Part shown: in pieces, positions 5,941 to 16,840 of the stretch | Numbering within the stretch: the first letter of the stretch is position 1 | Layout of the letters: each line of letters begins with the position of its first letter | NCBI RefSeq assembly: GCF_014779595.1 | Contig: NZ_JACXZT010000019.1 | Location: 1,271,808 to 1,335,807 of the forward strand | Direction of reading: 5' to 3' | Origin: Halomonas sp. ML-15 | GTDB lineage: Bacteria > Pseudomonadota > Gammaproteobacteria > Pseudomonadales > Halomonadaceae | Length of the DNA stretch: 64,000 bases | Notes under the pieces: model-generated | Database searches by the model: none | Told to the model about the DNA's origin: nothing | Seen by the model: the letters and a program-made list of their open reading frames with translations, nothing else | Translations under genes and position numbers: made by a program

Positions 5941-5958
5941 TTGGCACGCTTTACGCAA
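5941..5958 (+). promoter_or_regulatory. Sigma-54-type promoter of the exopolysaccharide operon
   Basis: The sequence TTGGCACGCTTTACGCAA matches the -24/-12 sigma-54 pattern: TGGCAC, a GG at 5943-5944, exactly ten bases, then GC at 5955-5956. The -12 half is ACGC instead of the usual TTGC, so the match is good but not perfect. Transcription would begin near 5967, giving a 5' leader of about 145 bases before the dehydrogenase start. If real, the operon needs an enhancer-binding activator. Confidence 0.55.
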
Positions 5959-6111
5959 TCATGGAGATGTTTCGCCCAGATGTTGACGGCTGTGAACTCC
6001 CCCAAGGATGAGAGGGAGGCTGGCCGTCCAGATGGTTTTATCACTACTTCTTCCGCTCACAGCACCGCGCGAACACGCCATGGAAGAGTCGACAAGCAAG
6101 GAGCGTCACTC

Positions 6112-7458
6112 ATGCGGATCACCATTTTTGGCTCGGGCTATGTGGGCCTGGTTACTGGCGCCTGCCTGGCCGACGTTGGCCACGACGTCATCTGCGTCGA
6201 TATCGACAACGACAAGATCGCCGCCCTCAACGACGGCCAGGTACCCATTCACGAGCCGGGCCTGGAGACCATCATTCGTCATAACCTCGAGGCCGGCAGA
6301 CTGCGCTTCACCACCGATGCCGCCCGCGCGGTGGAGTTCGGCCTGCTGCAGTTCATCGCCGTGGGAACGCCCCCCGACGAGGACGGCAGTGCCGATCTGC
6401 AGTATGTGCTGCAGGTGGCTCGCACCATCGCCACCCACATGCAGGAGTACAAGGTCATCGTCGACAAATCGACGGTGCCCGTTGGCACCGCCGAGAAGGT
6501 CCACGCCTGCGTGGCCGAGACCCTCGCCGAGCGCGGCGCGACCCTGGCCTTCGATGTCTGCTCCAACCCGGAGTTTCTCAAGGAAGGTGCCGCCATCGAA
6601 GACTTTTCGCGCGGCTCACGGATCGTCGTCGGTACCGACAGCGATAGGGTTCGCCAAGCCATGCGCGAGTGCTATGCGCCTTACAACCGCCTTCAGGACA
6701 AGCTGATCTTCATGGACATTCGCAGTGCCGAGCTGACCAAGTACGCCGCCAATGCGATGCTCGCCACCAAGATCAGCTTTATCAACGAGATCGCCAACCT
6801 GGCTGAGAAACTCGGCGCCGACATCGAACACGTGCGCCACGGCATCGGCAGCGATCCGCGCATCGGCCACCACTTCATCTACCCCGGCTGCGGCTACGGT
6901 GGCTCGTGTTTTCCCAAGGACGTCCAGGCCCTGGCACGCACCGCCCACGCGATTGGCCACCAGCCACAGCTACTCGAAGCCGTGGAGGCCATCAATGTGC
7001 GCCAGAAAGACCTGCTGTACTCCAAGCTCGCGCGCGCCTTCCACGGCGACCTGGCCGGCAAGACCATCGCCCTGTGGGGGCTGGCCTTCAAGCCCAATAC
7101 CGACGACATGCGCGAAGCTCCCAGTCGCGCGCTGATGGAAGCGCTTTGGGATGCAGGAGCTCGGGTTCAGGCCTTCGACCCGGAGGCCCAGGACGAGTGT
7201 CGACGCCTCTACGGCGAGCGCGACGACCTGTCACTGTGCAAGCGCCGCGACGAAGCACTCGAGGGGGCCGATGCGCTGGTCATCTGTACCGAGTGGAAGG
7301 CCTTCCGCACGGTCGACTTCAGCGTGCTGAAGCAGACCCTGGCCAGCCCGATCGTGATCGATGGCCGTAATCTGTTCGAGCCTGCCCAGCTCAAACGGGC
7401 CGGCCTCGACTACTACGCCATCGGGCGCGGCGACTCACTGCAGGCCGCCCTGGCCTAG
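6112..7458 (+). CDS. ugd: UDP-glucose 6-dehydrogenase
   Basis: This 448-residue enzyme oxidises UDP-glucose to UDP-glucuronate with NAD. The N-terminal Rossmann motif is [10 protein letters not shown]. The catalytic cysteine lies in [10 protein letters not shown] and the substrate-binding stretch in [14 protein letters not shown]. The segment [13 protein letters not shown] is the UDP-glucose form; GDP-mannose dehydrogenase (AlgD) carries a different sequence there. The start at 6112 has an AGGAG site upstream; the frame extends further but without family similarity. It is the first gene of the Alg-like operon, nine bases before the synthase gene, which points to UDP-glucuronate as the polymer precursor. 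Confidence 0.92.
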
Positions 7459-7466
7459 GAGTCGGC

Positions 7467-9038
7467 ATGCAACCCTCAACGCCCAAATCCTCTGTCGCCA
7501 GCTGGGCGACGGAGGTCACCGTCATGCTGTTTGGACTGGCGCTGCTAGTGGTACTGATCAGTGAGCTGCCCCGCGACATCTTCTCGCCGGAGTCGCAGAG
7601 CTTCTTCTTCGTGATCGGTGCCATCGGCATCTGGCGCTACTCTTGGTGGTTCGTCCAGGCGCTGCGCTCAACATGGTACAACCGCCAGGTGTTTCCTCAG
7701 CTGCGCGCCGAGGCTGACGCGCTGGGCGCCGCCGGCATGCCCAGCGAGCTGTATGTGCTGTGCACCTCCTATCGTATCGAGCCGGCGGTCAATTTCGCGG
7801 TCTACGACGCGCTGATCGGCGAGGTCCGCGACTATGGCGTGCCAACGGTGATTTTCGCCGCCATCTCTGATCGCAGCGACGTCGATGTCATCGACCACGT
7901 CCTCGATGAGCACGGCTGGCCAGCCAATGTCGAGGTGCGCTACATGTTCCAGAAGGGCGATGGCAAGCGCTCGGCGATGGCCGAAGTGCTGCGCGCCATC
8001 TCGCGCTGCATGCCGGCGCCGGATGCCCTGCTGGTATCAATGGATGGCGATATCCGTCTCGAGCCCGGCACCCTTGCACACTCACTGCCGTTCTTCGCCC
8101 TGCAGGATGATCTCGGCGCGCTGACCACCAACAACGCCGCCATCGTCACCGGCGACGACGCCACCAAGGAGTGGTACGACCTGCGCTACGCCCAGCGCCA
8201 CCTGGTGATGAGCTCGATGTCGCTCTCCGAGCGTCTGCTGGTGCTGACCGGTCGCTACAGCGTGTTTCGCGCCGAGCTGGCGACCCATCCCAGTTTCATC
8301 GACCTGGTCGAGAACGATCACGTCGAGCACTGGCGCTTCGGCGACTTCAAGTTCTTGTCCGGCGACGACAAGTCGACCTGGTACTGGCTGCTAAAGCGCG
8401 GCTGGAAGATGCGCTACCTGCCCGACGTCTACGTCTCGGGCTTCGAGGAGCTACCCGACCGACGCCGCTTCTTCGCCTCGACCCTCGACCTGATGCGTCG
8501 CTGGTACGGCAACATGCTGCGCACCAGCAACCGCGCCATCGCCCTGGGGCCGCGCCCCATGGGGCTGTTTACCTGGTGGAGTCTGATCGATCAGCGGCTG
8601 TCGATGTGGACCACGCTGGTAGGGCCTACGGTCGCCATTCTGGTGACCGCCTTCGTGCGTCCATCGTTCATCTTCGCCTATCTGCTGTGGATCATCTTCA
8701 CCCGCAGTATTGCGGCGCTGGTGCTGGCCTGGCAGCGCGGCCGCTTCAGCCTGCTGTGGGTGCCGCTGCTCTACTACAACCAGATCGGCGGTGCCCTGCT
8801 CAAGACCTATGTGAGCTTCCGTTTCAATCGCCAGAAATGGTCACGCCAGGGTATCTCCGCCGGTGAACCCGACAGCCGTCGCGCCGCGCGACGACAGCGG
8901 CGCATGGGCCACTTCATGCACGGCGTCTACATGGCCAGCCTGCTGTTCGTACTGGTGCTGGCCACCGGCGTGCTGGCGCCGCCGGATGCCGTGTCGCTGA
9001 ACATCTTCCAGGACAACGGTGGCCTCAACGGCCGCTGA
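7467..9038 (+). CDS. alg8: Alg8-like exopolysaccharide synthase (GT2)
   Basis: This 523-residue inner-membrane processive glycosyltransferase belongs to the Alg8/mannuronan synthase branch of GT2. Two N-terminal membrane segments (about 16-32 and 46-62) precede the catalytic domain, which carries MDGD at 192-195, SGDDKSTWYWLL at 298-309 and the acceptor-site variant LMRRWYGNM at 342-350. Further membrane segments follow (about 383-445 and 490-510). In Pseudomonas, Alg8 polymerises mannuronate from GDP-mannuronate. Here the operon supplies UDP-glucuronate instead, so polyglucuronate synthesis is inferred. Activity should depend on the downstream PilZ partner. Confidence 0.88.
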   Translation: MQPSTPKSSVASWATEVTVMLFGLALLVVLISELPRDIFSPESQSFFFVIGAIGIWRYSWWFVQALRSTWYNRQVFPQLRAEADALGAAGMPSELYVLCTSYRIEPAVNFAVYDALIGEVRDYGVPTVIFAAISDRSDVDVIDHVLDEHGWPANVEVRYMFQKGDGKRSAMAEVLRAISRCMPAPDALLVSMDGDIRLEPGTLAHSLPFFALQDDLGALTTNNAAIVTGDDATKEWYDLRYAQRHLVMSSMSLSERLLVLTGRYSVFRAELATHPSFIDLVENDHVEHWRFGDFKFLSGDDKSTWYWLLKRGWKMRYLPDVYVSGFEELPDRRRFFASTLDLMRRWYGNMLRTSNRAIALGPRPMGLFTWWSLIDQRLSMWTTLVGPTVAILVTAFVRPSFIFAYLLWIIFTRSIAALVLAWQRGRFSLLWVPLLYYNQIGGALLKTYVSFRFNRQKWSRQGISAGEPDSRRAARRQRRMGHFMHGVYMASLLFVLVLATGVLAPPDAVSLNIFQDNGGLNGR

Positions 9039-9075
9039 TGTCCTCCCCGATTCGCGTTTGCAAGGAGCCTGTCAC

Positions 9076-10686
9076 ATGAATCCCCGTTATCCCGGTCATC
9101 ATGATCGCAGCGAACCCACTCTCGGCGTCCGACGGCGCTACCTGAACGACGACCGGCCAGCGCAACGGGACAGCGACGCGTACGACGCGGCTCCCGAGCG
9201 ACAAGGCCCGCGTGATCCGCACGCTTATCGCTCGCCGCCCCCCCACCGCGAGGCGCTGAGGCATGAGCGCCGCGATGAGCGTCAACATGTGCGTATCTCG
9301 CCGCCGTTTCAGATCGAACTGGCCGACGGCCGGCGCCTTAGCGGGTTGGATCTGTCGCTGGGCGGTTTCGCCGCCCACGCCGACACCTCCCTTGCCATCG
9401 ACAGCGTGGTCGACGCCAACCTACTGATCGAAGCCGGTGGCGCCGAGCTGATTATTCCGCTGCAAGCCCGCTGCCTGCGCTGCCATCCGTTCGAGGCGCA
9501 TGCCGATCACAAGCTGGCCTTCCAGATCGTCGCCATCGACCCGCCCCATCTCGAGCTGCTCCGCAAGGTCATACGCGCCCACCTCAGCGGCCGGCATGCC
9601 AGCATCGAGCGACTGGTCGGCGAGGAGGACCCGCAGACCCCGCGCAAGCGCCAGCAGCCTACCGGCACCACCCCTCCGGGTCGACCGCCCAAGCCCTGGG
9701 GGCGCTATGCGTTACTCTTCGTCGCGGCCGGGGTGCTGGTGGTGGCCGCTGCCGCCACCGCCTACCGCAACTTCATGCTGATCGAGCCGAGCTTCGCTGC
9801 TGTCACCGCACCGCGCATCGATATCCGCGCACCCGGGGCGGGGATACTTCGCGAGCATCAGTGGGAGGCCGGCGACCGCGTTGAGCGCGACGAGTACCTG
9901 ACCGGGGTCAACAACAGCGACCTCGAATCGGACCTGATCCTTGCCCAGGCCTCGCACCGCTACAACTCACAGCTGATCGATAACCTTCAGGCCAGCCTCG
10001 ACGACCCCAACGCCCAGCAGGTCAGTCTGGTCAATTCGACCCAACCGGCCAGCGGCGACACCGTCAACTACGAGACCGCCTCACCGGAGATTGCCCAGGC
10101 CCGCGTCGAGCAGTTCGAAACCACCCGCGACTACGAGAGCTCGCGGATCAGCGCCCTGCAGTCGCGGATGTCGATGAACGAGATCACCAGCCCCTGCGAC
10201 TGCCTGGTGGCCTGGGCGCTGTCGAGTGCCGACGGCACCTATATCAACGAGAGCGAACGCATCATGACGCTGATTCGCACCGGTGAAGACGACGTCATGG
10301 TCGAGGCGCTGGTGCATATGAGCGATATCGCCCGCATCGAGCCCGAGCAGGTCGCCTATATCGCCCTGCCCCACGCCTCGGAGCCAATTCGCGCCCAGGT
10401 GCGTAGCGTGGCGCTCGACGTCGAGCGCCAGCCGCGCGCTGGCTTCCCCGACTGGGTGCGCCAGCAGCAGAACGTCGCCAGCGTGCTGCTGGTGCCCGAG
10501 ACCGACCTGCCGGCGGATGCCGTGGGCAAGCCTGTTGACGTGCGTTTCACCGAGCAGCCAGTGCTGGCCGCCGGCGCCGAGTGGGTCTGGCAGGGCGGCC
10601 GTGCCATGGCGCAGTTCGTCGAGCGTCTCTACCAGTCAGCGCGGGGCGGCGCTGACGATCCCCCCGAGCAAGCCCAGGAGAGTTGA
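9076..10686 (+). CDS. alg44: Alg44-like PilZ/membrane-fusion co-polymerase
   Basis: This 536-residue protein has an Alg44-like plan: a cytoplasmic PilZ domain, one membrane helix (about 211-230) and a periplasmic HlyD-like region. The c-di-GMP residues are intact, with RxxxR at 69-73 (RQHVR) and DxSxxG at 92-97 (DLSLGG). The lipoyl-like stretch beginning IRAPGAGILREHQWEAGD marks the membrane-fusion part. The first 65 residues are polar and low in complexity. The start at 9076 follows CAAGGAG; an earlier in-frame codon overlaps the synthase end. The protein probably activates the Alg8-like synthase when c-di-GMP binds. Confidence 0.87.
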   Translation: MNPRYPGHHDRSEPTLGVRRRYLNDDRPAQRDSDAYDAAPERQGPRDPHAYRSPPPHREALRHERRDERQHVRISPPFQIELADGRRLSGLDLSLGGFAAHADTSLAIDSVVDANLLIEAGGAELIIPLQARCLRCHPFEAHADHKLAFQIVAIDPPHLELLRKVIRAHLSGRHASIERLVGEEDPQTPRKRQQPTGTTPPGRPPKPWGRYALLFVAAGVLVVAAAATAYRNFMLIEPSFAAVTAPRIDIRAPGAGILREHQWEAGDRVERDEYLTGVNNSDLESDLILAQASHRYNSQLIDNLQASLDDPNAQQVSLVNSTQPASGDTVNYETASPEIAQARVEQFETTRDYESSRISALQSRMSMNEITSPCDCLVAWALSSADGTYINESERIMTLIRTGEDDVMVEALVHMSDIARIEPEQVAYIALPHASEPIRAQVRSVALDVERQPRAGFPDWVRQQQNVASVLLVPETDLPADAVGKPVDVRFTEQPVLAAGAEWVWQGGRAMAQFVERLYQSARGGADDPPEQAQES

Positions 10687-11582
10687 TGATGTCGATGTTT
10701 CCAACCCGTCCATGGATCGCCAGCGGCACCGTGGCCATCAGCACACTGGTGGCGGCGACACCACTGGCTGCCGACGACGTCGATGCCACCCTGACCACTC
10801 CCGAGTCTCAGGGCTGTTCGGCGCGCTACACCGAGGTAGCCCATCATCGTCCGGACACCGCTGCCGCCAATCCCAAGCAGGCTGTGCGGCGCGGCTTCGC
10901 GACCAACCGCGACTGGGGCACCGAGCATAACGTCGATATCCTGCCGGCTGGCCAAGAGGGCATCGACGAGCCGGTGCTACGCGTTCACTACCCCGCCGGC
11001 ACGTCCTCCCCCGGCGACGACGACGGGGGCCGCGGCCGGGGCGGTGCCGGCTTCTATACCGAGGACGCCGCTCTGGCCGAGGCCGACCGCGCCTGCCTGC
11101 GCTATCAGGTGCGCTTTGCCGATGGCTTCGACTTCGTGCGCGGCGGCAAGCTCCCGGGGATCTACGGCGGCGAGGGCCCTAGCGGCGGAGAAACCGCCGA
11201 TGGCGAGAACGGCTTCTCGATGCGTTTCATGTGGCGCGAGGAGGGACAGGGCGAGCTCTACGAGTACGTGGTCAATCAGGACGAGGATCATGGCGCCTCG
11301 GTGGGCCGCGGTCTGTGGCACTTCCCCACCGGCCGCTGGGTCACGGTCGAGCAGGAGGTGGTCCTCAACCACCCCGAGCGCGACGACGGCATCGCTCGAG
11401 TGTGGATCGACGGTGAGCCGGTACTCGAGCAGCGCGGCATCGTCTATCGCACCAGCCCGCAGGTCGGCATCGAGGGCATGATGTTCTCGAGCTTCTTCGG
11501 CGGGCACGGCGAAGGTTGGCGCACACCGCATGATCAGTACGCCGACTTCAGTGATTTCCGGCTCTATATCCCAGGTTCATGA
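10686..11582 (+). CDS. Secreted PL14-like polysaccharide lyase
   Basis: This 298-residue protein has a signal peptide (about 1-29, ending ATPLAAD) and a single jelly-roll domain. The motifs GGKLPGIYGG (153-162), FSMRFMW (177-183), GRWVTVEQEVVLN and MFSSFFGG resemble polysaccharide lyase family 14. Characterised PL14 members cleave alginate or glucuronate-containing polymers, so a periplasmic role in trimming the operon's product fits. The start overlaps the end of alg44; ATG codons at 10686, 10689 and 10695 are all possible behind AGGAG. The family call is by motif memory; a glucuronan lyase of another jelly-roll family is the main alternative. Confidence 0.7.
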   Translation: MMSMFPTRPWIASGTVAISTLVAATPLAADDVDATLTTPESQGCSARYTEVAHHRPDTAAANPKQAVRRGFATNRDWGTEHNVDILPAGQEGIDEPVLRVHYPAGTSSPGDDDGGRGRGGAGFYTEDAALAEADRACLRYQVRFADGFDFVRGGKLPGIYGGEGPSGGETADGENGFSMRFMWREEGQGELYEYVVNQDEDHGASVGRGLWHFPTGRWVTVEQEVVLNHPERDDGIARVWIDGEPVLEQRGIVYRTSPQVGIEGMMFSSFFGGHGEGWRTPHDQYADFSDFRLYIPGS

Positions 11583-12835
11583 TGCCCATGATGTCGAATT
11601 CCGCTATACCCTCTTCGCGTCGGCGGACAGCGCTGCGTGGACTGGTTGCCGCGGCACTGCTCGGCGCGGCGTCCAGTGCCGCCGCCTTGACCATTGCCGA
11701 ACGCGAAGCGCTGGATCTCTCCGACTACACCGTCAACGATCCGGAGGCCGGCTACTTCGACGTCGAGGCGCGCATGGCCCTGCTCGACGACACCCATAAC
11801 GCCATGCTGCTGCAAGAGCTCGACGAGCTCGCCACCGGCGTCAGCTGCCGGCAGCTGCTGAGCATTCCTCCGATTACCACGCGCTTGCGGGTACCGGGCT
11901 TCTACCCCAATCCCGAGGAGTGGCGGCTGGCCTCGGAGCCGCTGTTCCAGTTCGAGGACAGCGTATCGCTGCTGGCCGGCAGCTTCGTCGCCACCGGCGA
12001 CGACTACTATGCCGACTGTCTGGTGACTTTCCTCGAGCGCTGGGCGGTCAACGATGCGCTAATGGACTTCCACTATGAATCGATGGAGCCACAAGCGTGG
12101 TTCGCCACCGAATCGATGATCTTCGCCGCGGCCATGGCCTACTCGGTGGTACGTCCTCATGTCGAAGACCGCGAGCAGGAGCAGGCCGATGTCGAGGACT
12201 GGCTAAAACGCCTCAGTGATCGGCATATCGGCATCCCCGGCGAAGAGGGCAACAGTTGCTGCAACAACCACTTCTATCGCCGCGCCCTGTATGCGGCGAT
12301 GGTCGGCGTGCTGCTGGAGGACGACGAGCTGTTCCAGATCGGCGTCAGCGCCGTCTACTCGGCGCTCCATGACCTCACCGAGGACGGCGCCCTGCCGCTG
12401 GAAGTGGCCCGCGGCCGCCGCGCCACGCACTACCAGAACTATGCGCTGCTCTACCTGATTCCGATCATGGAGATCGTCTCCCGTCAGGGCTACGACATCT
12501 ACTCTCTCGAGATCGACGGCCGCGATATCCACGATGCCGTGGACTTCCTCATGCAGGCTATCTACGACCCGGCCAACCTGGGTGAGGACGTCCCCCTCGA
12601 GCAGTTCGGCGGCTTCCTCCAGGACCCTCAGTACTTCGTGTGGATGGAGCTCTACCAGACTCGCTTCGACGATCCGCGTATCGCCGACTTTCTGCCCCGC
12701 CTGAGACCCATCTACAACCGCAGCGCAGGCGGCTACATGACCCTCTATGTGATGCCGCCCGAGGCGCAGCAGCAGGTCATCATCGACGACGATGCCCCCG
12801 CCACCCAAGGCTTCGATGGCCTTGCGGCGCATTGA
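11579..12835 (+). CDS. algL: AlgL-like polysaccharide lyase (PL5)
   Basis: This 418-residue periplasmic protein has an export signal with a run of arginines (SRRRTALRGL, possibly Tat). The alpha/alpha-barrel lyase motifs are clear: NNHFY at 229-233 aligns with the catalytic Asn-His of AlgL, and VARGRRATHYQNYAL at 276-290 with its Arg/His/Tyr cluster. In alginate producers AlgL removes stray polymer from the periplasm. Here the substrate is probably a uronan whose identity is open. NNHFYRR differs from the usual NNHSYW, which may reflect another substrate. The start overlaps the previous stop (ATGA). Confidence 0.85.
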   Translation: MMPMMSNSAIPSSRRRTALRGLVAAALLGAASSAAALTIAEREALDLSDYTVNDPEAGYFDVEARMALLDDTHNAMLLQELDELATGVSCRQLLSIPPITTRLRVPGFYPNPEEWRLASEPLFQFEDSVSLLAGSFVATGDDYYADCLVTFLERWAVNDALMDFHYESMEPQAWFATESMIFAAAMAYSVVRPHVEDREQEQADVEDWLKRLSDRHIGIPGEEGNSCCNNHFYRRALYAAMVGVLLEDDELFQIGVSAVYSALHDLTEDGALPLEVARGRRATHYQNYALLYLIPIMEIVSRQGYDIYSLEIDGRDIHDAVDFLMQAIYDPANLGEDVPLEQFGGFLQDPQYFVWMELYQTRFDDPRIADFLPRLRPIYNRSAGGYMTLYVMPPEAQQQVIIDDDAPATQGFDGLAAH

Positions 12836-12870
12836 ACGTTGTACACCCCCTCAACGGGAAGGAATCCACC

Positions 12871-15405
12871 ATGCCACGACCACACGACACACGCCCCATC
12901 ATCACCCCCTGGCGCCAGCTGCCCGCCTGTGCCGGGCTGGTTCTGCTGGTCGGTATGGCCGGCTGCGCCGGCTCCGGCGGCGCACCACCCGGGGAGAACC
13001 ACGCCACCGCCCTGCCCTCGCAGTACGCTCACTGGTTCGAGGGTAATGTCGAGGCCGATATGAGCGGCGACGACTGGAACCGTATCAACTATGCCCAGCG
13101 TCTGATCGAAGAGGGCGACTACGCCCGCGCCGAGGACCAGCTGCGCCAGATGATCAACCTCGGCTTTCCACCGGCCTCCTACCACCTGGGCCGGATGTAC
13201 GAAAACGGGCTCGGCGTCGAACGCGATACCGCCGAGGCCGCCCGTCTCTATGCCGAGGCGCTGGAGCTGCCCTCGTCATCGCGGGGCCACGCCTCGCTCA
13301 ATCTGGCCAAGCTCTATCTCGAGGGCGACGGCGTGGTACGCAACGACGCCCTGGCCTACTACCTCCTGTGGCAAGCCATCGACGAAGACGTGGAGCGTGA
13401 CGCCGAAATCACCCTGGCGGCGTTGATGGTGGAAGGCGGCGACGGCGTCCAAGCCGATCGCCGCCTGGCCCGTCGCCTCTACCAGCGCGCCGCCGAGCGC
13501 GGTGATCCGCGCGCACAGCTGGCCCTGGCCGAGGCCTATCGCCCCGATGGCTGGCTGGTCGATGACCCCGAACGCTCCGAGCAATATGCCGAGCAGGCCG
13601 CCGCCACGCTTCAGGCCGAGGCCGAAGCCGGCGATACCGGCGCCATGCAGCGCCTGGCACGACTCCATGGCGACGAGGGCCTACTCGACGGCGACCCGCA
13701 GCAGCGCCTCGACTGGCTGCTGGCCGCCGCCGAATCCGGCGAACCCGGCGCCCAGACCCAGGCCGCGCGCCTGCTGCTCGAAGACGGCGATGAGGCCCAG
13801 GCCATCAGCCTGCTGGAGACCGCCGCCGAACAGGGCGATGTCGACGCCATGGCGCTGCTCGGCGACCATCTGCTGGAGCGTTCGGCCCACGACGGCCAGG
13901 GCATCGCCTGGCTCGAACGCGCCGCCGAGCGTGGCTCGGCTGATGCCGCGGTCAGTTTGGCCAGCGCCCACCTCGATGGAGACGGCATTGCCAGCAATCC
14001 GCAGCAGGCCATAGCGCTGCTTGAGCAGGCCGCCGAACAGGACGACGGCTATGCCCTGGCGCTGCTCGGCGAGCTCTATCTCAGCGACGAACACCTGCCT
14101 TCGCAGCCACTGCAGGCCATCGACTACCTGCAGCGCGGCCATGAGCTGGGCCACCCCTACGCCACCATGCAGCTCGGTGAGGTCTATCTCGAGGGGCGCG
14201 GCGTGGCCGGCAACCCTCGCCAGGCCGAGACCCTGCTGCGCGAGTCGGCTAGCCAGGGCCAGGCCAGCGCCAAGCGGCTGCTGGGAGAGGCCTACCTGGA
14301 GGGCGAAACACTCGACTACCATCCGTCGCGCGCTGAGCGACTGCTGCGCGAAGCCGTCGAGGCCGGAGACACTCGCGCCATGACCGTGCTTGGCGAGGCG
14401 TATCTGGAGGGCATCGAGGGCGAATTGCAGCCCGAGTGGGGCATCGATCTGCTCGAGGATGCTGCCCGCCAGGGCGACGACTACGCCATGGTGGTCATGG
14501 GCCGCGCCTATCGCCATGGCGACGGCGTCGAACGCGATCTGCAGCGCTCCGCCTACTGGCTGCAGCAGGCCGAGGACGCCGGTCACGAATCGGCCGGCGA
14601 TGCGCTGATGTACACCCAGCGCGATCTCGGTGCAGCGGGCGATATCGAGGCGCTGGTCCACGCCGCCGAAGAGGGCCACCCGGGCGCCATGGCCGACCTC
14701 GGCCGCGCCTACCTCAATGGCCAAGGCGTAGCCGCCAACGCCGATCAGGCCCGTGCCTGGCTAGAGCGCGCCGATCGCGCCGGCCATCCCGGCGCCGCAG
14801 CGAGCCTCGGCCGCCTGCAGCTTGATGCCGGCGACGAGGCTGGCGCCCGCGACTATCTGGAACGCGCAGTGGCCGGCGGCCATAGCGGCGCCCATGCCGA
14901 TCTCGGTGAGCTGCTGATAGAATCCGGCGACGACCCCGAGCGAGGCATGCAGCTGCTCACCCAGGCCGCGGATGCCGGCCACAGCGGCGCACGCCTCCAC
15001 CTCGCCCAGGCCTATCTGTACGGTGACGACGGTCTGCCGCAGGACACCGAACGCGGCCTCGGCTATCTCCAGGAAGGAGTCGATAATGGCCACCCCGGCG
15101 CCCAGGCAGTGCTGGGCCGGGAGTACCTGCGAGGCGAGGTGCTGGAGTATGACGCCGCGCGCGGCAGCGACCTGCTGTTGGCCGCCGCCGAGCAGGGCCA
15201 TGAGAGTGCCCGCCTGGCACTGGCCGAGGCCTATCTGGCGGCCAACGGTCTGGAGAGTGCCAACAACGAACAGGCGTTGATCTGGCTGGAGGGGGTGATC
15301 GAAGGCGACAGCCAACTGGCCTCCCAGACCCTGCGCCAGTTGCTTACCGAAGACAGCGCCCGAGACGCCATTGGCAGCCGCGACCTGTCGGCGGCACTCG
15401 AGTAG
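12871..15405 (+). CDS. algK: AlgK-like Sel1-repeat outer-membrane lipoprotein
   Basis: This 844-residue lipoprotein has a signal peptide and lipobox LVGMAGC (Cys about residue 31), then almost entirely Sel1-type repeats of about 36 residues, by estimate around twenty. Typical units read LGRMYENGLGVERD or LGEVYLEGRGVAGN. AlgK, the alginate secretion lipoprotein that positions the outer-membrane porin, has the same architecture but is only about half as long. As the last gene of the operon it may organise polymer export. The start at 12871 follows GGGAAGGAA and gives a proper lipoprotein signal. Orthology to AlgK is inferred from context. Confidence 0.72.
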   Translation: MPRPHDTRPIITPWRQLPACAGLVLLVGMAGCAGSGGAPPGENHATALPSQYAHWFEGNVEADMSGDDWNRINYAQRLIEEGDYARAEDQLRQMINLGFPPASYHLGRMYENGLGVERDTAEAARLYAEALELPSSSRGHASLNLAKLYLEGDGVVRNDALAYYLLWQAIDEDVERDAEITLAALMVEGGDGVQADRRLARRLYQRAAERGDPRAQLALAEAYRPDGWLVDDPERSEQYAEQAAATLQAEAEAGDTGAMQRLARLHGDEGLLDGDPQQRLDWLLAAAESGEPGAQTQAARLLLEDGDEAQAISLLETAAEQGDVDAMALLGDHLLERSAHDGQGIAWLERAAERGSADAAVSLASAHLDGDGIASNPQQAIALLEQAAEQDDGYALALLGELYLSDEHLPSQPLQAIDYLQRGHELGHPYATMQLGEVYLEGRGVAGNPRQAETLLRESASQGQASAKRLLGEAYLEGETLDYHPSRAERLLREAVEAGDTRAMTVLGEAYLEGIEGELQPEWGIDLLEDAARQGDDYAMVVMGRAYRHGDGVERDLQRSAYWLQQAEDAGHESAGDALMYTQRDLGAAGDIEALVHAAEEGHPGAMADLGRAYLNGQGVAANADQARAWLERADRAGHPGAAASLGRLQLDAGDEAGARDYLERAVAGGHSGAHADLGELLIESGDDPERGMQLLTQAADAGHSGARLHLAQAYLYGDDGLPQDTERGLGYLQEGVDNGHPGAQAVLGREYLRGEVLEYDAARGSDLLLAAAEQGHESARLALAEAYLAANGLESANNEQALIWLEGVIEGDSQLASQTLRQLLTEDSARDAIGSRDLSAALE

Positions 15406-15445
15406 CCACTCTCTTAGTAGTAGCGAGAATCACCACGCCACTACG

Positions 15446-15475
15446 CAACGAGCCGCCCCTAGGGGCGGCTCGTTG
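15446..15475. terminator. Perfect GC-rich hairpin between convergent operons
   Basis: A 30-base perfect palindrome centred at 15460/15461 (arm CAACGAGCCGCCCCT) lies between the convergent algK-like gene and purA. It lacks a long T-run on either side, so it is a terminator-like bidirectional hairpin and not a textbook intrinsic terminator. Confidence 0.7.
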
Positions 15476-15499
15476 TCTATTGCGCTTTAGCGCCGGCCA

Positions 15500-16840
<1,341 letters not shown>

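Follow-up and report, generated by a model that had tools for sequence, protein, structure and literature searches.

A six-gene Halomonas operon with an Alg8-type synthase and a UDP-glucose dehydrogenase, predicted to make a glucuronic acid polymer

Introduction

Which polymer is made by an operon whose synthase and accessory proteins are of the alginate type and whose sugar-nucleotide enzyme is a UDP-glucose dehydrogenase (UGD)? The question is raised by a run of six genes, ugd-alg8-alg44-PL14-PL5-algK, in a 64,000-nucleotide stretch of Halomonas sp. ML-15 (contig NZ_JACXZT010000019.1, positions 1,271,808 to 1,335,807), the whole of which is called the window here. By its gene set this is not an alginate operon, though it is one that works like an alginate operon. 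We propose, with a probability of roughly 0.64, that it is a synthase-dependent system under the control of cyclic di-GMP (c-di-GMP) that makes a glucuronic acid polymer, most likely the homopolymer beta-1,4-glucuronan.

Results

Gene content and organization

All six genes lie on one strand and nearly abut, separated in order by a gap of 8 bases, a gap of 37, overlaps of 1 and 4, and a gap of 35; the window's open reading frame (ORF) listing places SUF genes on one side of them and purA on the other.

6112..7458, + strand: ugd, UDP-glucose 6-dehydrogenase, 448 aa, predicted to supply the UDP-glucuronate donor (bits to 2y0e, TIGR03026, tree)
7467..9038, + strand: Alg8-type membrane GT2 synthase, 523 aa
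9076..10686, + strand: Alg44-type co-polymerase with an N-terminal PilZ domain and an HlyD-like part, 536 aa (an alternative GTG start at 9019 is possible)
10686..11582, + strand: PL14 polysaccharide lyase with a signal-peptide-like N-terminus, 298 aa (PF21294)
11579..12835, + strand: PL5 lyase of AlgL/A1-III/Smlt1473 type, 418 aa (PF05426)
12871..15405, + strand: AlgK-like Sel1-repeat lipoprotein, 844 aa (Sel1, PF08238)
15445..15476, no strand: strong inverted repeat between algK and the convergent purA (folding of 15405-15500)

An earlier note on this DNA had named the dehydrogenase together with an alginate-type synthase, its PilZ partner, a PL5 lyase and a Sel1 lipoprotein, and all five are indeed present in this one co-directional run; it overlooked the sixth gene, the PL14 lyase at 10686-11582 (PF21294, E 2.4e-62), and its operon start at 5941 is an over-extended TTG start, the ATG of ugd being at 6112. 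The segment 15405-15500 folds with -47.8 kcal/mol (z -6.5), and the hairpin within it is probably a bidirectional terminator. A promoter scan 5' of ugd returned weak matches only.

The sugar-nucleotide dehydrogenase and the search for alginate genes

The ugd product scores 592 bits against the solved UDP-glucose dehydrogenase 2y0e and 208 against the Pseudomonas GDP-mannose dehydrogenase (GMD) 1mfz; it is above the cut-off of TIGR03026 and reaches 486 bits with the NCBIfam model TuaD, below that model's cut-off of 700. In a Rhizobium Alg8 cluster the preference is turned round: the dehydrogenase there scores 372 bits against GDP-mannose dehydrogenase, 167 against 2y0e and no more than 211 against any enzyme of the UDP-glucose type. 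A tree of 46 dehydrogenases, which carries a long-branch warning, places 24 GMDs adjoining other Alg8 genes on one side (support 97) and the UGDs, the window's among them, on another (98). The bit scores and the tree rule out a GMD misread as a UGD, and the original identification of the enzyme as UDP-glucose 6-dehydrogenase stands.

Five sugar-nucleotide dehydrogenases are encoded by the 4.8 Mb source genome, two of UDP-glucose type, one of WecC (UDP-ManNAc) type and one of TviB type (the last two both above curated cut-offs), and one that is divergent; none of the five is AlgD-like. The divergent one (L015:922-2226) is UGD-like, just above the general family cut-off, and its neighbour looks galU-like by eye. 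The genome has no match at E 0.1 to the AlgE porin (PF13372), AlgG (NF038177) or AlgX/J (PF16822), and the operon PL5 is its sole match to PF05426. One AlgA-type GMP/PMI gene does lie above cut-off elsewhere in the genome. When the 275 genomes of the family were searched with a GMD query at E 1e-85, a threshold that a very divergent GMD might escape, none matched; the same query recovered three of three control genomes at 416-967 bits, with a second, UGD-like match at only 224 bits. At the thresholds used, these negatives, in the source genome and in the family, rule out a full alginate set hidden elsewhere in the genome.

Distribution and conservation of the gene set

Relatives of the window Alg8 (E 1e-20) occur in 10 of 369 genomes drawn from the class, the source genome included, and in 89 of 275 genomes and 11 of 24 genera of the family. 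Thirty of the 92 family places with Alg8 were taken with their surroundings and further loci were added from named contigs, giving 62 loci, or 54 distinct ones when those with the same Alg8 are counted once and the window is left out. The full order is kept on one strand in 48 of the 54, 46 by best-scoring ORFs together with L147 and L170, where a further PL14/PL5 pair accompanies the six genes in this order; a few loci, such as L134 and L084, have genes broken into several ORFs. Because so many loci keep the order, chance clustering of the six genes is ruled out. No GMD, AlgG, AlgE, MBOAT or GMP/PMI gene was found in the stretches examined around the 54 loci.

Six loci depart from the order. 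In Caenispirillum salinarum (L125) ugd lies between alg44 and PL14; L076 is without ugd; L127, from a Geminicoccaceae metagenome-assembled genome (MAG), has alg8-alg44-PL5 only; in Halomonas saccharevitans (L148/L065, genome G448) alg8 is without partners on a contig that ends about 540 bases downstream; and L116 and L138 stand at contig ends, the truncated L138 still having ugd. PL14 is on a different contig from Alg8 in genomes G448 and G457.

The flanks vary. SUF genes adjoin 20 of the 54 loci (15 of these also have purA), purA alone adjoins 18, and 16 have neither. Several of the 16 are on short contigs, so true relocations number fewer than 16; the existence of such loci nevertheless means that a shared location is not enough to explain why the genes stay together.

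The alphaproteobacterium Caenispirillum salinarum encodes the same synthase (918 bits) together with the co-polymerase, AlgK and the two lyases. Its Alg8 is nested inside the Halomonadaceae clade in the first Alg8 tree (126 sequences, thinned to 78 at 80% identity). Its ugd branches outside the group formed by the operon ugds, the second ugd of the window genome and the Ramlibacter ugds (support 97), and scores 506 bits with TuaD, again below the cut-off of 700. No GDP-mannose dehydrogenase-type match was found in this genome, the best score, 175 bits, being that of the operon ugd itself (against 392 and 477 in two control genomes). No other sequence evidence speaks as strongly for UDP-glucuronate as the donor as this pairing of one synthase clade with two distantly related ugd genes.

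The Alg8-type synthase

Across the 54 loci Alg8 is 57-96% identical to that of the window, the closest family relative being in genome G390 (96%); identity to Alg8-like proteins is 38-41%. The window-type synthases form a clade of their own, with support of 96 in the first tree and 99 in a second from which L146 and L121 were removed (2 of 78 rows). The earlier note had asked how this Alg8 stands to the mannuronan synthases: in both trees its clade is separate from, and not nested within, the GMD-linked synthases, in a set that contains no Alg8 of Pseudomonas or Azotobacter (the best 80 of 580 relatives in named contigs were used, and none is from either genus). The Alg8 loci that do not belong to the clade number 63: a GDP-mannose dehydrogenase accompanies 24 of them, a UGD four, and 35 have neither in the stretch examined.

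Four positions distinguish the clade from two GMD-linked clades, as counted with the four Grimontia/Enterovibrio loci and L121 removed (5 of the 63 non-clade loci). F161 is present in 55/55 clade synthases (Arg in 12/12 and 14/15 of the two GMD-linked clades), N223 in 55/55 (Glu in 12/12 and 15/15), V259 in 55/55 (Thr in all 27) and Y264 in 53/55 (Met in all 27). Positions 161, 223, 259 and 264 are accordingly named here as candidates for donor specificity.

The closest solved fold is that of the GT2 hyaluronan synthases (Chlorella virus, Xenopus) bound to UDP-glucuronate, at 13-15% identity. The Alg8 sequence (phmmer) had no match in the PDB at E 0.01, an Alg8 profile had none either, and a second profile gave a weak chondroitin synthase match only (E 0.21).

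Other Alg8-like groups were also seen. Several Alg8 ORFs of clade D (L100:9953-12595, L098, L108 and L130, from Ramlibacter and a gammaproteobacterial MAG) are at least 880 aa long, and in L100 the synthase part is followed by a weak pectate-lyase/epimerase-like match; a UGD is nearby on the opposite strand in 4 of 31 loci of this clade, which may represent another system for a uronate polymer, one whose epimerase or lyase is built into the synthase protein. Alg8-like genes of Grimontia/Enterovibrio (L146, L152, L153, L161) are accompanied by an Alg44-like gene in three of the four loci. The first of them has a very long branch beside the window-type clade in the first tree, and in L153 the genes nearby encode DNA polymerase and a hybrid histidine kinase, and neither a dehydrogenase nor a lyase was found among them. 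Among 54 pattern matches in viral contigs there was one Alg8 relative, which was not used.

The Alg44-type co-polymerase

As a single sequence the window Alg44 matches neither the Pfam PilZ model nor the solved PilZ domain of Pseudomonas Alg44 (4rt0); a profile of 33 Alg44 relatives, six from outside the clade, matches 4rt0 at E 1.2e-14, and the window protein is above cut-off for HlyD_3. The c-di-GMP motif RxxxR...[DN]xSxxG, in the form given in PMC8461298, is present in 52 of 54 Alg44 sequences, that of the window included, the two misses being L069 (Ala for Ser) and L127 (a masked stretch). Control by c-di-GMP, as first proposed, is thus supported by both profile and motif, and the window Alg44 would be expected to bind the nucleotide.

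In an Aquificota MAG a GGDEF protein (L094:12610-13830) is encoded directly 3' of an Alg44-Alg8 pair, a position that suggests a local supply of c-di-GMP there.

The PL14 and PL5 lyases

The window PL14 matches alginate lyase 5gmt (3.1e-29) and vAL-1 3a0n (1.8e-6). Among 53 PL14 sequences K155 is kept in 52, S178 in 50, R180 in 52, and Y192 and Y194 in all 53; these are the residues that we take, from work on vAL-1 and AkAly30, to be catalytic. PL14 is counted among the alginate lyase families (PMC4444821), and its member vAL-1 has been crystallised with D-glucuronic acid (PMC3764139). Matches to PL14 occur in 97 of the 275 family genomes, including 89/89 of those with Alg8; the other eight score 59-105 bits.

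The window PL5 (PF05426, E 1.6e-39) is closest among solved structures to A1-III (1hv6, 1.1e-45), then to 7fhu of the Smlt1473 group (1.7e-30), then to AlgL (4ozv, 2.8e-13). N230 and H231 are found in 53 of 54 sequences and R278 and Y285 in 52, the remainder being gaps or masked letters; the roles of these N, H, R and Y residues are as described in PMC8511899. Smlt1473 is described as polyglucuronan-active (PMC4444821), and its activity on polyglucuronate peaks at pH 7 (PMC8511899). Every synthase-dependent operon is said to encode an enzyme able to degrade its own polymer, and AlgL has been shown to clear the periplasm (PMC8829089); if that rule holds here, the presence of two uronate lyases in the operon points to a uronate polymer.

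Both lyase families recur in other arrangements. Four Billgrantia loci (L137, L139, L147, L170) have a second PL14+PL5 pair 3' of algK. Outside Halomonadaceae, an Alg8-Alg44-PL14 cluster (L024:8617-12959) adjoins an arylsulfotransferase, its PL14 being 46% identical to that of the window over 196 residues, and in Planctomycetes (L119:6677-8485, L142:11467-12234) PL14 lies directly 3' of alg8, fused in L119 to a beta-helix domain. Legionella saoudiensis (L172:4775-11527) has PL14 about 3 kb upstream of a GMD-alg8 pair, so PL14 is not tied to UGD.

The AlgK-like lipoprotein

The last protein of the operon has Sel1 repeats (PF08238, E 1.2e-60), scores 101 bits with NF038194 against a cut-off of 700, and is nearly twice as long as Pseudomonas AlgK (475 aa). 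Of 51 ORFs, 48 have a lipobox-like motif close to the N-terminus, that of the window among them.

Discussion

A proposed pathway and its alternatives

In the pathway that we propose, Ugd, assigned to its family by sequence, would oxidise UDP-glucose to UDP-glucuronate, which the Alg8-type GT2 synthase would polymerise while threading the chain through the inner membrane. The synthase would be switched on by binding of c-di-GMP to the PilZ domain of Alg44, the polymer would cross the periplasm along the AlgK-like lipoprotein, and PL5 and PL14 would trim or clear stalled chains there. Enzymes of the PL5 and PL14 families cleave 1,4-linked uronates, and their presence leads us to expect uronate in the chain. 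The clade of synthases probably emerged out of, or next to, the mannuronan-type enzymes, with UDP-glucuronate replacing GDP-mannuronate as donor. In its widest form the proposal is that this clade comprises the first identified glucuronan (poly-beta-1,4-GlcA) synthases, mannuronan-type enzymes with a changed donor, gated by c-di-GMP, served by two periplasmic housekeeping uronate lyases and an export route that operates without AlgE, and occurring in roughly one in three Halomonadaceae genomes and in at least one alphaproteobacterium with a ugd of its own lineage; taken jointly, these statements seem to us somewhat better than an even bet.

Some observations pull the other way. L127, whose synthase is basal to the clade, is without ugd on its contig, and a GMD-like gene (315 bits) lies elsewhere in its MAG. 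Together with the missing ugd of L076, the AlgA-type GMP/PMI of the source genome and the alginate-type character of the remaining parts, this would fit a reduced alginate system in which GDP-mannuronate is still the donor of the synthase and ugd serves another polymer. We regard that as very improbable, since GDP-mannose dehydrogenase is absent at the threshold used from all 275 family genomes (with all three controls recovered) and was not found in Caenispirillum, since ugd belongs to the set in 48/54 loci and comes from a second lineage in Caenispirillum, and since AlgG, AlgX and AlgE were not found in the source genome. L076 could equally be cited, with the split ORFs of some loci, the lack of a detected porin and the solitary alg8 of H. 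saccharevitans (although that genome, G448, does have PL14 on a separate contig), for the view that the operon is a remnant, decayed or seldom used; nearly all of the 53-54 sequences, however, retain the PilZ motif and the active-site residues of the lyases, and Alg8 stays at 57-96% identity across the loci, which leaves decay very improbable.

What the donor becomes is a further point. The synthase might alternate UDP-glucuronate with a second common UDP-sugar such as UDP-GlcNAc or UDP-glucose to make a copolymer, as a single GT2 hyaluronan synthase does, and we think this unlikely yet worth keeping in mind: the window synthase is Alg8-like by sequence (38-41%) and resembles hyaluronan synthases by fold only (13-15%), the operon encodes just one donor-making enzyme, and Alg8 of known product makes a homopolymer. 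Alternatively UGD, the common entry to UDP-GalA and UDP-Xyl, might feed an epimerase or decarboxylase encoded elsewhere, and the polymer be made of the converted sugar. No such enzyme is among the six genes (the genome beyond the set was not searched for one), xylan is unsuited as a lyase substrate, and PL5 and PL14 are not, to our knowledge, pectate lyase families; a converted donor thus appears hardly probable. The glucuronic acid homopolymer remains the reading that we prefer. If it is correct, a processive synthase has changed both nucleotide and sugar, from GDP-mannuronate to UDP-glucuronate, within an otherwise conserved secretion machine.

Comparison with known systems

The earlier note knew of no described system with this gene set, and our literature search, whose coverage excludes most subscription journals, likewise found none. 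The H. smyrnensis genome paper lists genes as 'Alg8' and 'alginate lyase precursor' with no further comment (PMC4523562); the labels 'alginate biosynthesis protein Alg8' and 'alginate lyase precursor' in that species would be misleading if our reading is true and the genes belong to this clade. The words 'alginate' and 'alg8' do not occur in the main texts of the H. malpeensis and H. desertis genome papers.

The alginate operon of Pseudomonas and Azotobacter has the order algD-alg8-alg44-algKEGXLIJF-algA. The window operon shares with it Alg8, the Alg44 PilZ co-polymerase, an AlgK-type lipoprotein, PL5 and the synthase-dependent logic, and differs in having a UDP-glucose rather than a GDP-mannose dehydrogenase and an additional PL14, and in being without AlgE, AlgG, AlgX/J and acetylation genes. 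Clusters of Rhizobium, Microvirga and roseobacters (L087-L092, L126, L128, L159) likewise start with dehydrogenase-Alg8-Alg44, several having PL5 and AlgK, and their synthases form clade A, drawn as sister of the window-type clade in the first Alg8 tree; they differ in their GDP-mannose dehydrogenase and AlgG-like epimerase, and some have GMP/PMI and acetylation genes. Hyaluronan synthase, which supplies the closest solved fold and also uses UDP-glucuronate, is only 13-15% identical to the window Alg8 and alternates GlcA with GlcNAc, and we know of no PilZ partner, lyases or AlgK that accompany it. The atypical alginate operons of Bundalovic-Torma et al. 2020 (PMC7112194) are also alginate-type loci without algKE or modification genes; they are termed alginate operons, and the text available from that paper mentions neither Halomonas nor 'glucuron-'.

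The product predicted here is that of the glucuronan producers Sinorhizobium meliloti M5N1CS and Peteryoungia rosettiformans (PMC10180729). A glucuronan lyase has been reported in S. meliloti, and the same 2023 paper describes the genes for glucuronan synthesis as still unknown (PMC10180729). If our reading is true, the six genes of the operon are candidates for the synthesis of bacterial glucuronan, and because they are present in many cultured halophiles, the question of which genes make glucuronan becomes testable.

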